A stretch of 64,000 nt of DNA from Bradyrhizobium rifense (GTDB taxonomy: Bacteria; Pseudomonadota; Alphaproteobacteria; Rhizobiales; Xanthobacteraceae): NCBI RefSeq assembly GCF_008123425.1, contig NZ_VSSS01000024.1:259374-323373 (forward strand), written 5' to 3'. Every line of letters begins with the position of its first letter. Within the stretch, counting starts at the first letter, position 1. Shown in pieces: positions 7,614 to 11,865 of this stretch. The notes beneath the pieces were generated by a model. It was given only the letters and a program-made list of their open reading frames with translations. It was not told where the DNA came from and did no database searches. The translations under genes were made by a program, and so were the position numbers.

Positions 7614-8522
7614 TTACTTGAACAGCGAGAGGATGCTCTGGCTGTTCTGGTTGGCGATCGAGAGCGCCTGAACGCCGAGCTGCTGCTGGGTCTGGAGCGC
7701 CTGCAGGCGGGTGGATTCCGCGTTCATGTCGGCGTCGACGAGCTGACCGACACCGCGCGTCACCGAGTCCATCAAGGTCTTGACGAAGTCCGTGTTGGTC
7801 GCGATGCGGTTCTTGACGGCGCCAAGGTCGGCAGCGGCCGAAGCCACCGAGTTGAGCGCAGCAGTCACCTGCGTGATGTAGGTGCTGAGCGTGGCCTGGT
7901 CAGTCGCCGCGTCAGTCAGCGAGGTGATGTCGATCGTGTTGACCGACGCACCGCCGCTCACCGTGTCCAGGATGCCGGTGGTGGACGTGCTATAGAGCGA
8001 GTAGTTGGAGATCGTCAGGGTGATCGAGCCGATCGTCGGCGTGCCACCAACGCGAGAGAACGACGACACGAGGTCGAAGGTCGCTGGCGTTGCCGTCGTC
8101 ACGCTCAGCCAGTTCACGCCGTTGAAGGTCGCCGCATCGGCGGTACCCTTCATCTGCTGCTGGATCTGGGTGATGTCAGCCTGGATCTTGGTGCGGTCGA
8201 TGCCGGCGGTCTTGGCTTCGACCAGCAGCGCCTGGAGCTTGGTCAGGCCGCCGGTGCTGTCACCGACAACCGCGGTCAGAGCGGTATACTCGGTGTCGAC
8301 GGTCGCGGCCGACAGACCGAGCGAGTCGGAGACGGCGGAGAGCGCGGCGTTGTCGGCGCGCATCGAGGTCGCGATCGACCAATAGGCGGCGTTGTCCGAA
8401 GCCGTGGCCACGCGCTGACCGGTGGAGATCCGGTTTTCGGTAGTCTGGAGGCTGGAGCTGACGTTGCGCAGCGTCTGCAGCGCGGTCATTGCTGCGGAGT
8501 TGGTGAGCAGGCTAGAACTCAT
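7614..8522 (-). CDS. fliC: Flagellin 1 (lateral-type)
   Basis: Filament subunit, 302 aa. Conserved N-terminal D0/D1 segment (SSLLTNSAAMTALQTLRNVS, then TENRISTGQRV and ASDNAAYWSIATSMR) and C-terminal D1/D0 segment (AVKNRIATNTDFVKTLMDSV, QQLGVQALSIANQNSQSIL). The central variable region is very short. Start ATG at 8522 preceded by AAGGGGAC; an upstream in-frame ATG (8564) lies inside the leader and is rejected. It differs from flagellin 2 at only about six residues. Short flagellins of this size belong to the thin lateral flagella in Bradyrhizobium, whereas the thick subpolar flagellins are much longer. Confidence 0.95.
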   Translation of the reverse strand: MSSSLLTNSAAMTALQTLRNVSSSLQTTENRISTGQRVATASDNAAYWSIATSMRADNAALSAVSDSLGLSAATVDTEYTALTAVVGDSTGGLTKLQALLVEAKTAGIDRTKIQADITQIQQQMKGTADAATFNGVNWLSVTTATPATFDLVSSFSRVGGTPTIGSITLTISNYSLYSTSTTGILDTVSGGASVNTIDITSLTDAATDQATLSTYITQVTAALNSVASAAADLGAVKNRIATNTDFVKTLMDSVTRGVGQLVDADMNAESTRLQALQTQQQLGVQALSIANQNSQSILSLFK

Positions 8523-8527
8523 TTTTG

Positions 8528-8610
8528 ACGTCCCCTTGAAAACGATTTGAAATTTTTGGGACATACCGGGCTTGCACCGGTACGAGAGGGCGGCATCATG
8601 CCTTTGAGCT
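8528..8610 (-). promoter_or_regulatory. Structured 5' leader of flagellin 1 mRNA
   Basis: In RNA sense: a small hairpin GGCA-UGA-UGCC (8592-8602), then hairpin UACCGG-loop-CCGGUA (8564-8582, loop UGCAAGC), then AUGUCCC (8558-8564), which can pair with GGGACGU (8528-8534) covering the Shine-Dalgarno site, with one G-U pair. The same elements occur before flagellins 2 and 3. It resembles the described flg-Rhizobiales RNA motif, found before flagellar genes in Rhizobiales; this match is from memory and unchecked. Confidence 0.75.
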
Positions 8611-8625
8611 GCGAAAAAGCGCGCT

Positions 8626-8663
8626 CAACCTGTCGTAATGGCGGCGATAGCACGCGAAGTTTG
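8626..8663 (-). promoter_or_regulatory. Conserved 38-bp block upstream of flagellin 1 (probable promoter)
   Basis: On the minus strand the block starts CAAACTTCGCGTGCTA and ends ACGACAGGTTG. The same block, with exactly the same length between its ends, precedes flagellins 2 (9812-9849) and 3 (10992-11029). Constant spacing of TTCGCGYGCTA and ACGRCRGGTTG is what a promoter or activator site would show. No known sigma consensus was recognised. Confidence 0.55.
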
Positions 8664-8747
8664 CGCGAGGCTTGTGGCTCTGTGACCGGACCGCAATTCG
8701 AGACACGAAATCGCGCCTCTGACACCCGAACAGCGCACGCCAAAATG

Positions 8748-8779
8748 AAAAGGGCCGCGCTTCTCACGAAGCGCGGCCC
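8748..8779 (-). terminator. Intrinsic terminator of flagellin 2
   Basis: Perfect 12-bp stem: GGGCCGCGCTTC (8752-8763) and GAAGCGCGGCCC (8768-8779) with a 4-base loop, followed on the minus strand by TTTT. It is 20 bases beyond the fliC2 stop. A nearly identical hairpin follows flagellin 3. Confidence 0.9.
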
Positions 8780-8798
8780 CCTTAGATGGTTTTCAGGC

Positions 8799-9707
8799 TT
8801 AGCGGAACAGCGAGAGGATGCTCTGGCTGTTCTGGTTGGCGATCGAGAGCGCCTGAACGCCGAGTTGCTGCTGGGTCTGGAGCGCCTGAAGGCGGGTGGA
8901 TTCCGCGTTCATGTCGGCGTCGACAAGCTGACCGACACCACGATTCACCGAGTCCATCAAGGTCTTGACGAAGTCCGTGTTGGTCGCAATGCGGTTCTTG
9001 ACGGCACCGAGGTCGGCGGCGGCCGAAGCCACCGAGTTGATCGCAGCAGTCACCTGCGTGATGTAGGTGCTGAGCGTGGCCTGGTCGGTCGCCGCGTCGG
9101 TCAGCGAGGTGATGTCGATCGTGTCGACCGACGCGCCGCCGCTCACCGTGTCCAGGATGCCGGTGGTGGACGTGCTGTAGAGCGAGTAGTTGGAGATCGT
9201 CAGGGTGATCGAGCCGATGGTCGGCGTGCCACCAACGCGGGAGAACGACGACACGAGGTCGAAGGTCGCTGGCGTTGCCGTCGTCACGCTCAGCCAGTTC
9301 ACGCCGTTGAAGGTTGCCGCATTGGCGGTGCCCTTCATCTGCTGCTGGATCTGGGTGATGTCAGCCTGGATCTTGGTGCGGTCGATGCCGGCGGTCTTGG
9401 CTTCGACCAGCAGCGCCTGGAGCTTGGTCAGGCCGCCGGTGCTGTCGCCGACAACCGCGGTCAGAGCGGTATACTCGGTGTCGACGGTCGCAGCCGACAG
9501 ACCGAGCGAGTCGGAGACCGCGGAGAGCGCGGCGTTGTCGGCGCGCATCGAGGTCGCGATCGACCAATAGGCGGCGTTGTCCGAAGCCGTGGCCACCCGC
9601 TGACCGGTGGAGATCCGGTTCTCGGTGGTCTGGAGGCTGGAGCTGACGTTGCGGAGGGTCTGCAGCGCGGTCATTGCTGCGGAGTTGGTGAGAAGGCTAG
9701 AACCCAT
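8799..9707 (-). CDS. fliC: Flagellin 2 (lateral-type, near-identical to flagellin 1)
   Basis: Filament subunit, 302 aa, starting MGSSLLTNSAAM at 9707 behind AAAGGGAC. It has the same terminal D0/D1 helices as flagellin 1 and differs at about six positions (Ser2Gly; Asp/Asn in MKGTANAATF; Asn/Asp in GGASVDTID; Leu/Ile; Thr/Asn; final Lys/Arg). Such similarity across 900 bases points to recent duplication or gene conversion. It has its own leader, upstream block and terminator, so it is probably a single-gene transcript. Confidence 0.95.
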   Translation of the reverse strand: MGSSLLTNSAAMTALQTLRNVSSSLQTTENRISTGQRVATASDNAAYWSIATSMRADNAALSAVSDSLGLSAATVDTEYTALTAVVGDSTGGLTKLQALLVEAKTAGIDRTKIQADITQIQQQMKGTANAATFNGVNWLSVTTATPATFDLVSSFSRVGGTPTIGSITLTISNYSLYSTSTTGILDTVSGGASVDTIDITSLTDAATDQATLSTYITQVTAAINSVASAAADLGAVKNRIATNTDFVKTLMDSVNRGVGQLVDADMNAESTRLQALQTQQQLGVQALSIANQNSQSILSLFR

Positions 9708-9711
9708 TTTG

Positions 9712-9793
9712 ATGTCCCTTTGAAGATTGAGTTGATTTGGGGACATACCGGACTTGCACCGGTACGACAGGGCGGCGTCATGCCTTTGGGCTG
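9712..9793 (-). promoter_or_regulatory. Structured 5' leader of flagellin 2 mRNA
   Basis: Hairpin UACCGG/CCGGUA (9746-9764, loop UGCAAGU) is followed by AUGUCCC (9740-9746), perfectly complementary over 7 bases to GGGACAU (9712-9718), which overlaps the Shine-Dalgarno site just before the ATG. A small third stem starts GGCAUGACGCC. The anti-Shine-Dalgarno strand and the hairpin share one nucleotide, so the two helices may stack or compete. Confidence 0.75.
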
Positions 9794-9811
9794 CGGAAAA
9801 GCGGTTAGGCC

Positions 9812-9849
9812 CAACCCGTCGTAGCGGTGACCGTAGCGCGCGAAGCTTG
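9812..9849 (-). promoter_or_regulatory. Conserved 38-bp block upstream of flagellin 2 (probable promoter)
   Basis: Minus-strand ends CAAGCTTCGCGCGCTA and CTACGACGGGTTG, aligned without gaps to the blocks before flagellins 1 and 3. It lies 105 bases upstream of the start codon, leaving room for the structured leader between transcription start and gene. Confidence 0.55.
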
Positions 9850-9927
9850 TGCGGGGCTTGTGGGTCTGTGTCCCGGCCGCAACAGCGCAGCCGAAATCGC
9901 GGCGTGAGCGGGACGTCACGTCAAACG

Positions 9928-9958
9928 AAAGGGCCGCGCTTCGCGAGAAGCGCGGCCC
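9928..9958 (-). terminator. Terminator hairpin of flagellin 3
   Basis: Perfect 12-bp stem GGGCCGCGCTTC (9931-9942) and GAAGCGCGGCCC (9947-9958), loop of 4, then TTT on the minus strand. The stem sequence is identical to that after flagellin 2; only the loop differs. Confidence 0.85.
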
Positions 9959-9980
9959 TCCCCCAGATGGTTTTTCAGGC

Positions 9981-10886
9981 TTAGCGGAACAGCGAGAGGA
10001 TGCTCTGGCTGCTGCTGTTGGCGATCGAGAGCGCCTGAACACCGAGCTGCTGCTGGACCTGGAGAGCCGACAGACGGGTGGACTCCTGGTTCATGTCGGC
10101 GTCGACGAGCTGGCCGATACCGCGAGACACCGAGTCCATCAGCGACTTCACGAAGTCCGTATTGGTCGAGATACGGTTCTTGACGGCGCCGAGGTTGGCG
10201 GCGGCCGAAGCCACCGAGTTGATCGCAGCAGTGACCTGCGAGATGTAGGTATCGAGCGTGGCCTGGTCGGTTGCCGCGTCAGTCAGCGTGGAGATGTCGA
10301 TCGTGTTGACCGACACGCCGCTGCTCACCGTGTCCAGGATGCCGTTGGTGGACGAGCTGTAGAGCGCATAGTTGGCAGTGGTCAGCTGGATGGAGCCGGT
10401 GGTCGGCGTGCTGCCGACGCGGGAGTACGACGACACCAGATCAACCGTCGCCGGCGTGGCCGTCGTCGTGCTCAGCCAGTTGACGCCGTTGAAGGTCGCC
10501 GCATCCGCGGTGCTCTTCATCTGTTGCTGGATCTGGGTGACGTCCGCCTGGATCTTGGTGCGGTCGATACCCGCCGTCTTGGCTTCGACCAGCAACGACT
10601 GCAGCTTGGTCAGGCCGCCGGTGCTGTCGCCGACAACCGAGGTCAGAGCGGTATATTCGGTGTCGACGGTCGCGGCCGACAGACCGAGCGAGTCGGAGAC
10701 GGCGGAGAGCGCGGCGTTGTCGGCGCGCATCGAGGTCGCGATCGACCAGTAGGCAGCGTTGTCCGAAGCAGTCGAGACGCGCTGGCCGGTGGAGATGCGG
10801 GTCTGCGTGGTGGCGAGTTGGGAGCTCACAGACCGCAGGGTCTGGAGGGCGGTCATAGCGGTCGAGTTCGTAAGCAGGCTTGACAT
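9981..10886 (-). CDS. fliC: Flagellin 3 (lateral-type, diverged copy)
   Basis: Filament subunit, 301 aa, starting MSSLLTNSTAMTALQTLRSV at 10886 behind AAAGGGACAT. It shares the terminal helices with flagellins 1 and 2 but differs more in the middle (TLVSSYSRVGSTPTTGSIQL region; SSSTNGILDTVSSGVSVN) and ends SIANSSSQSILSLFR. First in transcription order of the three flagellin genes. The divergence suggests an older duplication than that of flagellins 1 and 2. Own leader, upstream block and terminator are present. Confidence 0.95.
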   Translation of the reverse strand: MSSLLTNSTAMTALQTLRSVSSQLATTQTRISTGQRVSTASDNAAYWSIATSMRADNAALSAVSDSLGLSAATVDTEYTALTSVVGDSTGGLTKLQSLLVEAKTAGIDRTKIQADVTQIQQQMKSTADAATFNGVNWLSTTTATPATVDLVSSYSRVGSTPTTGSIQLTTANYALYSSSTNGILDTVSSGVSVNTIDISTLTDAATDQATLDTYISQVTAAINSVASAAANLGAVKNRISTNTDFVKSLMDSVSRGIGQLVDADMNQESTRLSALQVQQQLGVQALSIANSSSQSILSLFR

Positions 10887-10891
10887 TGCGA

Positions 10892-10980
10892 ATGTCCCTT
10901 TGATGTACGCGTTACATTTTCACGAGGGGACATACCGGGCTTTCACCGGTACGGAGGGGCGGCATCATGCCTTTGGACTG
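10892..10980 (-). promoter_or_regulatory. Structured 5' leader of flagellin 3 mRNA
   Basis: Hairpin UACCGG/CCGGUA (10933-10951, loop UGAAAGC), then AUGUCCC (10927-10933), perfectly complementary to GGGACAU (10892-10898) over the Shine-Dalgarno region. The small stem GGCAUGAUGCC (10961-10971) is also kept. The linker between the pairing segments is longer (28 nt) and unrelated in sequence to the other two leaders, so the complementarity is conserved where the linker is not. Confidence 0.75.
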
Positions 10981-10991
10981 TGGGTGGGGTC

Positions 10992-11029
10992 CAACCCGCC
11001 GTGCCGCATAGCTAGCACGCCGAATCTTG
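10992..11029 (-). promoter_or_regulatory. Conserved 38-bp block upstream of flagellin 3 (probable promoter)
   Basis: Minus-strand ends CAAGATTCGGCGTGCTA and CACGGCGGGTTG match the blocks before flagellins 1 and 2, while sequences further upstream do not align. Confidence 0.5.
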
Positions 11030-11096
11030 CTTCCGAATTAAGACGGGCCTGAATTCTTCAGCAAAATCATATGATTAATGTTACTCTTCGCTAACC

Positions 11097-11111
11097 TTAA
11101 CCAACCGTTAG
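11097..11111. promoter_or_regulatory. CtrA-like site TTAA-N7-TTAG
   Basis: TTAACCAACCGTTAG lies just beyond the fliP stop and about 210 bases upstream of flagellin 3. It matches the CtrA consensus TTAA-N7-TTAA at seven of eight bases. CtrA controls flagellar genes in many alphaproteobacteria, but a single near match in an AT-richer gap is weak evidence. Confidence 0.3.
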
Positions 11112-11124
11112 GTCGAGGCCGCTG

Positions 11125-11865
11125 TTACGAGAACGACCGCACCAGTCCGGAGGCGAGCAGGTTCCAGCCGTCGATCAGCACGAAGAACAGCACCTTGAAC
11201 GGCAGCGCGAGGATCGACGGCGGCATCATCATCATGCCCATCGACATCGTCAGCGTCGCCACGATCATGTCGATGACGAGGAATGGCAGAATGATGAGGA
11301 AGCCGATCTCGAACGAACGCCGGAGCTCGGAGATCATGAAGGCCGGGATGATGACGCGCATGTCGATGCGCTTGTCGTCGAACTTCCTGCGAAAGCTTTC
11401 CGCGGCGAGCGACTCGAACGTCTGCAGGTCCTTGTCGCGGACATGGGCCAGCATGAATTCACGGAACGGATCGCTGATCTTCAGATAGGCCTCCTCCTCC
11501 GAGATCTCGTTCTTCATCAGCGGCTGCACGCCGGTTTCCCAGGCGCGATCGAAGGTCGGCGCCATGACGTAGAAGGTCATGAACATGGCGAGGCTGATCA
11601 GCACGAGATTCGGAGGCGTCGTCTGAAGGCCGAGGCCGGCGCGCAGGAACGAGAGCGCGACGGCGAAGCGCGTGAAGCTCGTCACCATGATGAGCAGCCC
11701 CGGTGCGACGGACAGCACCGTCAGCAGCGCCATGAGCTGGATGATCCGGCCGCTGGTCGAGCCGTTGCCGGGCGGCAGCAGCGAATTGAGGTCCGGGATC
11801 TGGGCGAACGCTACCTCGGGCAGCACGACCAGCAGCAACGCAAGCGGCAAGACTCTCAATTTCAC
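11125..11865 (-). CDS. fliP: Flagellar export gate protein FliP
   Basis: Core membrane subunit of the flagellar type III export gate. 246 aa. Cleavable signal peptide MKLRVLPLALLLVVLPEVAF at the N terminus, then the family signature around TSFTRFAVALSFLRAGLGLQ and the conserved GWNLL near the C terminus, with about four membrane segments. The 4-base overlap with fliL points to coupled translation. It is the last gene of the long basal-body unit; the next gene downstream is flagellin 3 with its own promoter region. Its usual partners fliQ and fliR are not in the window. Confidence 0.96.
   Translation of the reverse strand: MKLRVLPLALLLVVLPEVAFAQIPDLNSLLPPGNGSTSGRIIQLMALLTVLSVAPGLLIMVTSFTRFAVALSFLRAGLGLQTTPPNLVLISLAMFMTFYVMAPTFDRAWETGVQPLMKNEISEEEAYLKISDPFREFMLAHVRDKDLQTFESLAAESFRRKFDDKRIDMRVIIPAFMISELRRSFEIGFLIILPFLVIDMIVATLTMSMGMMMMPPSILALPFKVLFFVLIDGWNLLASGLVRSFS

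Follow-up and report, generated by a model that had tools for sequence, protein, structure and literature searches.

A predicted covarying RNA leader with a Shine-Dalgarno-covering helix before the flagellin genes of Bradyrhizobium rifense

Leader anatomy at the flagellin locus

The window, that is, the whole stretch of 64,000 nucleotides of Bradyrhizobium rifense DNA analyzed here (contig NZ_VSSS01000024.1, positions 259,374 to 323,373), carries three paralogous flagellin genes, 1, 2, and 3. Each of their mRNAs begins with a predicted conserved four-hairpin leader of about 120 nt, composed, in order, of H0 (a covarying stem), H1 (NGC-AUGAN-GCN), H2 (a CCGG hairpin), and H3, which is formed by an AUGUCCC segment and the segment around the Shine-Dalgarno (SD) site. 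The genes and the leader elements are the following:

7614..8522, minus strand: flagellin 1 (302 aa; PF00669 and PF00700), start at 8522
8528..8534, minus strand: flagellin 1 leader, H3 3' arm GGGACGU over the SD (one G-U pair)
8558..8564, minus strand: flagellin 1 leader, H3 5' (anti-SD) arm AUGUCCC
8565..8581, minus strand: flagellin 1 leader, H2, ACCGG-loop-CCGGU
8592..8602, minus strand: flagellin 1 leader, H1, GGC-AUGAU-GCC pentaloop
8604..8628, minus strand: flagellin 1 leader, H0, UUGAGC/GCUCAA, covarying in paralogues and relatives
8799..9707, minus strand: flagellin 2 (302 aa; PF00669 and PF00700), start at 9707
9712..9718, minus strand: flagellin 2 leader, H3 3' arm GGGACAU over the SD
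9740..9746, minus strand: flagellin 2 leader, H3 5' arm AUGUCCC
9747..9763, minus strand: flagellin 2 leader, H2
9774..9784, minus strand: flagellin 2 leader, H1, GGC-AUGAC-GCC
9786..9814, minus strand: flagellin 2 leader, H0, UUGGGC/GCCCAA, covarying in paralogues and relatives
9981..10886, minus strand: flagellin 3 (301 aa; PF00669 and PF00700), start at 10886
10892..10898, minus strand: flagellin 3 leader, H3 3' arm GGGACAU over the SD
10927..10933, minus strand: flagellin 3 leader, H3 5' arm AUGUCCC
10934..10950, minus strand: flagellin 3 leader, H2
10961..10971, minus strand: flagellin 3 leader, H1, GGC-AUGAU-GCC
10973..10994, minus strand: flagellin 3 leader, H0, UUGGAC/GUCCAA, covarying in paralogues and relatives

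H3 was proposed in a preliminary description of this DNA, whose arm positions and sequences are correct in all three leaders once read on the minus strand. The linkers between the arms do differ within the range of 21–28 nt given there (23, 21, and 28 nt in flagellins 1, 2, and 3), and the SD-side arm begins 11–12 nt upstream of the start codon. In silico folding of the window leaders gives the inner five H3 pairs a pairing probability of about 0.8–0.9, and blocking the 5' arm from pairing raises the minimum free energy by 5.7–7.7 kcal/mol. The pairing in the window alone is nevertheless weak evidence, because a shuffled upstream stretch yields a 7-bp complement with at most one G-U in 679, 366, and 345 of 20,000 trials for leaders 1, 2, and 3 (1.7 to 3.4%), and because the genes are paralogous; relatives are needed to decide.

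The SD-covering helix among relatives

Related loci were found by a contig scan with flagellin 3 as the query, and the best 78 among the matches listed were taken; their genera include Bradyrhizobium, Roseibium, Pannonibacter, Mesorhizobium, Hyphomicrobium, Ensifer, Shinella, Agrobacterium, and Rhizobium. From 174 flagellin-like frames (7 dropped without a nearby ATG, others by the score, start, or duplicate filters) we obtained 146 distinct leaders, including those of the home genome. By simple patterns, a GCAU-type H1 and an AUG[UC][CU]C arm occur together in 128 of them, H1 only in 8, the arm only in 6, and neither in 4. For alignment A1 (MAFFT), 62 leaders were chosen by hand from 93 thinned ones, excluding near-duplicates and about a dozen without clear H2 or H3, and the covariance model R1 was built from A1 with the window's three leaders among its training rows.

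Supplied with A1 and no structure, RNAalifold proposes 9 pairs, which make up H1 and H3; 3 of them show changes on both sides. Over H1, H2, and H3 together, 91.2% of the A1 cells are paired, as against 88.8% in shuffles and 30–46% with slid partners, and two-sided changes are found in 20 cells versus 6.0 in shuffles. The outermost A-U pair of H3 is present in only 18 of 61 scorable A1 rows, so that the helix of the order as a whole is about 6 bp long: the 7-bp pairing of the preliminary description holds in the window, with one G-U in flagellin 1, and not order-wide.

Newly fetched loci gave 79 flagellin-linked leaders; all but 2, which ended in neither ATG nor GTG, were kept. Dereplication left 57, of which 10 were more than 0.86 alike to A1 rows (one of these being identical), and the test was repeated on the remaining 47. 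H3 reaches at least 5 bp in 55/57 leaders (mean 25.0 and maximum 39 with a shuffled SD-side region) and at least 6 bp in 49/57 (mean 9.4, maximum 18); among the 47 unlike the training set the counts are 45 (mean 20.9, maximum 29) and 40 (mean 8.4, maximum 15). In swap tests native arms suit their own SD better, with 0/20,000 swaps doing as well for these 47 leaders (helix score), for all 77 new ones, and for the subset of 37 with an arm other than AUGUCCC. Earlier H3 swap tests kept in some older-locus arms that a simple rule had mispicked (e.g., L065:2582, L066:7280). Arm-anchored scripts were used because a MAFFT alignment of 58 distant leaders (A3) misaligned the 3' arms of one family.

Run across homologous leaders of the order, the covariation analysis finds the H3 arms changing on both sides, for example UCUUU/AAAGA, GUUCC/GGAAC, and UGCCC/GGGCA. 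In the new leaders AUGUCUUUC pairs with GAAAGAC (L177, L179, L180, L181, L183), and in L181 AUGUUUCC pairs with GGAAAC, while the first set includes AUGUUCC with GGAACA (L044) and AUGCCC with GGGGCA (L071, L079, L082). Sequence comparison thus confirms the predicted H3 pairing as real, selected, covarying, and lying over the SD. Both the selection and the covering of the SD, which the 3' arm spans while covarying with the 5' arm, had been put forward in the preliminary description, and the leaders have the conserved covarying helix over the SD expected of an SD-sequestering leader.

The AUG of AUGUCCC might alternatively be a start codon giving N-terminally extended flagellins; in flagellins 1 and 2 its frame is that of the gene and is open. 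It is out of frame in flagellin 3; the frame counts (in frame first) are 26, 28, and 25 outside Bradyrhizobium, 12, 14, and 27 within it, and 15, 20, and 22 in the 57 new leaders; stops are present in each frame, and L140 has CUG in place of AUG. On the frame counts we reject an upstream start as exceedingly improbable.

Upstream hairpins and range of the leader

H0, located directly before H1, appears from these comparisons to be the most strongly covarying part of the leader and the clearest indication that the leader functions as RNA. The window's three paralogues already differ in it by two-sided changes (UUGAGC/GCUCAA, UUGGGC/GCCCAA, UUGGAC/GUCCAA). Of 131 dereplicated leaders, 54 form an H0 of 7 bp or more (shuffled mean 6.2, maximum 12), 79 one of 6 bp or more (mean 21.9, maximum 31), and 107 one of 5 bp or more (mean 60.7, maximum 74). 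A swap test on 117 distinct arms gave a native score of 14.24 versus 10.92 (sd 0.21), reached by 0/20,000 swaps.

The H1 loop starts with AUGA in 53 of the 57 new leaders. A model of H1-H2 plus the AUGUCCC segment (R2) was run on 14 genomes and, besides flagellin leaders, found an extra site lacking the full AUGUCCC arm in 8/8 Rhizobiaceae genomes (L319–L326), with similar open frames within about 200 nt downstream; the two frames examined by Pfam (L319, L320) have Protoglobin and MCPsignal domains. By Pfam, an H1-H2 site also stands before a protoglobin-methyl-accepting chemotaxis protein (MCP) gene in Mesorhizobium (L327) and before a HAMP-MCP gene in Hyphomicrobium facile (L328). Of further R2 matches, those at L329, L331, and L332 are weak and chance-like, and L330 is a flagellin. 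H1-H2 is a predicted module that can occur apart from the SD lock. The interpretation given in the preliminary description survives in part, as a selected, covarying, SD-covering helix, to which H0 and this separability, both missing from it, have to be added.

These conserved features also bear on a switch made of RNA only, in which H3 would be a thermosensor or a kinetic lock melting without protein. H3 is short, with a base that includes A-U and G-U pairs, and closes a loop of 21–28 nt in the window, all of which would suit such a switch. The AUGA loop and the lock-free H1-H2 copies before chemoreceptor-like genes suggest a bound factor instead, and Rfam gives no match to thermosensor families (ROSE or fourU type) at the leaders; we consider a protein-free switch quite unlikely.

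In the home genome, R1 has 13 matches up to an expectation value (E) of 10, the three leaders at E 2.8e-16 to 1.6e-14 and the next at E 0.5. Scanned with stricter filters meant for large samples, an even sample of the order has matches at E 0.01 in 52/199 genomes; a flagellin follows the match in 47 sampled genomes plus the home genome (48/199 flagellin-linked), and G414, G416, G462, and G490 have only weak matches without flagellin. Presence of the leader outside the order was rejected: R1 on the class sample matched 8/289 genomes, namely the home genome and 7 weak cases among the 288 others, none of these 7 with a flagellin at the match. The newly fetched loci contain 76 R1 matches of at least 28 bits: at 69 the predicted start is that of a flagellin, and at two (L174, L182) a flagellin comes slightly further on; two (L151, L154) lie upstream of MCP genes by Pfam, and two (L158, L160) upstream of frames that resemble protoglobin-MCPs by likeness only. 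The last, at L153:2115-2191 (58.3 bits), lies in a flagellin cluster ahead of a 274-aa frame for which Pfam has no match.

The window's contig holds an additional flagellin-type gene (MPAISTNTAANSAV..., G000:C59:153866-154276) without an R1 match, with a second Flagellin_N match about 8 kb from it. Within the window, G+C-rich inverted repeats with a T-rich stretch lie 3' of flagellins 3 (9930-9959) and 2 (~8750-8785) on the minus strand. By eye they look like intrinsic terminators, so that each flagellin may be a separate transcript.

Flagellin leaders of other alphaproteobacterial orders (L219–L248, L249–L288) lack the H1-H2-H3 sequence by eye, unlike the window leaders; they often have pentaloop hairpins of the GC-AAAAN-GC or AGAAN kind, in some cases in tandem, together with sequences of the CCAGAAYGGAG or CCUUAGAAAAAGG type around the SD. 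In these orders, A-N-R-A-N pentaloops closed by stems of 4 bp or more occur in 33/79 leaders from genomes with FlbT (shuffled mean 3.3, maximum 9) and in 2/12 from genomes without it (mean 0.33, maximum 2). We claim no link of the pentaloop with FlbT in these orders, since the consensus was picked after viewing the sequences, the 91 starts include a few wrong ones (e.g., internal starts in L223 and L231), and 12 FlbT-negative leaders are too few.

Rfam 15 has 0 matches at the gathering score in the window, matches up to E 10 in window positions 8400-11200 all being far under their gathering scores, and on the related loci it finds only a tRNA, in 11 of them. Like the window leaders, RF01736 (flg-Rhizobiales) is a structured RNA of the same order tied by name to flagellar genes. 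It is described with three stem-loops (PMC3765529) and has a table row in PMC2864571. Membership of the window leaders in RF01736 (>55 bits) was rejected, with no match at these leaders, which are a separate element. The home genome's only match above the cut-off is on another contig (G000:C123:15046-15193, E 8.6e-23), with a large flagellin-type frame some 15 kb away on that contig; it is distinct from the window leaders. A literature search by title and the start of the abstract, with the key Caulobacter papers outside its scope, returned no description of the leader.

FlbT and the possible action of the leader

The same flagellar cluster includes flbT (G000:C59:255250-255621), 3.8 kb outside the window and beside flaF, FlaF and FlbT being assigned by Pfam. 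The genes flgK-flgL-flaF-flbT are in order at C59 ~255–259 kb, a short way before position 259374, where the window begins, the first two being, we assume, flgK and flgL. Thus flbT is both in the genome and near the cluster, as expected for an FlbT-regulated leader. In the order sample, FlbT is present in 48/48 genomes with a flagellin-linked match, and the six flagellin-positive, FlbT-negative genomes read off the lists are all without the motif. A search for a solved FlbT structure gave no credible match, and FlbT was detected in none of the 78 loci from the flagellin 3 scan. CsrA-FliW is a known case of protein-gated SD access on flagellin mRNA; the window leaders are like it in concerning SD access on a flagellin mRNA and unlike it in that the home genome has no detected CsrA (no match at E 1).

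Brucella belongs to the same order as B. rifense. Caulobacter crescentus reportedly has an FlbT-controlled flagellin 5' untranslated region (UTR) (Anderson and Gober 2000). The window leaders share with it an alphaproteobacterial flagellin leader, flbT-flaF, and suspected post-transcriptional control, within a comparison in which the closest fetched flagellin is 63% identical to a typed FljK stretch and C. crescentus itself lies outside. FlbT acts at flagellin 5' UTRs (PMC4347634, PMC3930126), by a mechanism that the former calls unresolved. According to reviews, in Caulobacter it represses together with the flagellin FljJ (PMC7591256) and its binding is said to promote mRNA decay (PMC4347634), in Brucella it is an activator (PMC8781033, PMC4347634, PMC9812332), and in Agrobacterium fabrum flbT came up in a screen for genes required for motility (PMC9812332). 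With opposite effects in Caulobacter and Brucella, the sign here is not transferable from Caulobacter.

The leader is a real RNA element. We think it probable, taken as a whole, that the four-hairpin leader combines an SD lock (H3) with an H0-H1-H2 platform for a trans-acting factor, the likeliest being FlbT. The C-rich segment directly after H2 would pair with the SD and keep initiation low by default, and H0, H1 with its AUGAN pentaloop, and H2 would form the upstream platform. The factor, FlbT, would help to open the lock after hook completion rather than close it. Such an off-switch would probably let cells avoid producing filament protein before it is usable. That the leader represses translation is, we believe, likely; that FlbT is the factor is a tentative proposal, somewhat short of an even case, and that FlbT opens rather than closes the lock is more doubtful still. 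We lean toward opening since in silico folding has H3 closed by default and FlbT is described as an activator in Brucella. The H1-H2 copies before chemoreceptor-like genes would suit a factor acting on both flagellin and Che genes, as FlbT is said to do in Caulobacter, where its control extends to the class III transcripts that code for flagellin and Che proteins (PMC9812332).

The opposite sign, FlbT closing the lock and repressing, would agree with the Caulobacter model (PMC7591256, PMC9812332) and with H3 hiding the SD in silico. A helix already closed has less need of a repressor, and both the activator role in Brucella and the recovery of flbT in the A. fabrum motility screen speak for the other direction; we hold FlbT repression here to be rather unlikely, yet a serious rival. 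The leader might also govern mRNA decay, as a platform for a nuclease or a stabilizer with SD masking as a by-product, in line with the decay said to follow FlbT binding in Caulobacter (PMC4347634). Since H3 follows the SD itself through changes in both arms, this too seems improbable, more so than the repressor.

Several points tell against the lock-and-platform interpretation. With the 5' arm blocked, the SD of the window leaders is still mostly paired elsewhere in silico (mean unpaired 0.26–0.39 vs. 0.23–0.26 native), and folded one at a time the leaders do not stand out (z -0.9 to -1.9). RNAalifold gives A1 a small covariation term (-0.51), and only 3 of the 20 two-sided A1 cells belong to H3. 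The hand selection of A1 omitted several leaders without clear H3, so that the R1 and A1 statistics depend on it, and R1, which includes H3, probably under-counts leaders without it. The H3 swap weakens with one leader per arm: 447 (energy) and 67 (helix) of 20,000 swaps for 36 arms, and 258 (energy) and 44 (helix) of 20,000 for 22 new arms. Phylogeny was handled in the permutation tests by dereplication only. One genus, in four genomes (L165, L167, L168, L172), has AUGUCAAAA or AUGUAAAAA and has lost the H3 arm (sites L165:2185-2267, L167:1410-1493, L168:1393-1473, L172:1382-1465); in L165 and L168 the SD, read by eye, is instead inside a local GGUA/UACC hairpin. FlbT is also found in 101/151 genomes of the order without a flagellin-linked match, and the motif-FlbT link may therefore merely reflect having flagella. 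Finally, R2 found no chemoreceptor copy of H1-H2 in the home genome, only the three flagellin leaders and one match at E 0.048.

A wider version, which we put forward as speculation and think unlikely, would make H0-H1-H2 the RNA target of FlbT in Hyphomicrobiales, gating flagellins through the SD lock and tuning chemoreceptor genes without it. The A-N-R-A-N pentaloop (GC-AAAAN-GC in other orders) would then be the ancestral recognition element, each order having its own SD lock.

As an RNA that is defined and covaries, with a proposed platform upstream of an SD lock and with its H1-H2 part also found before chemoreceptor genes of relatives, the leader offers exact sites for mutation, and the covariance model can list candidate targets. 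This matters since FlbT action on flagellin mRNA is called unresolved (PMC4347634) and the signs reported for Caulobacter and Brucella are opposite. The hook-filament checkpoint in this order thereby becomes directly testable.

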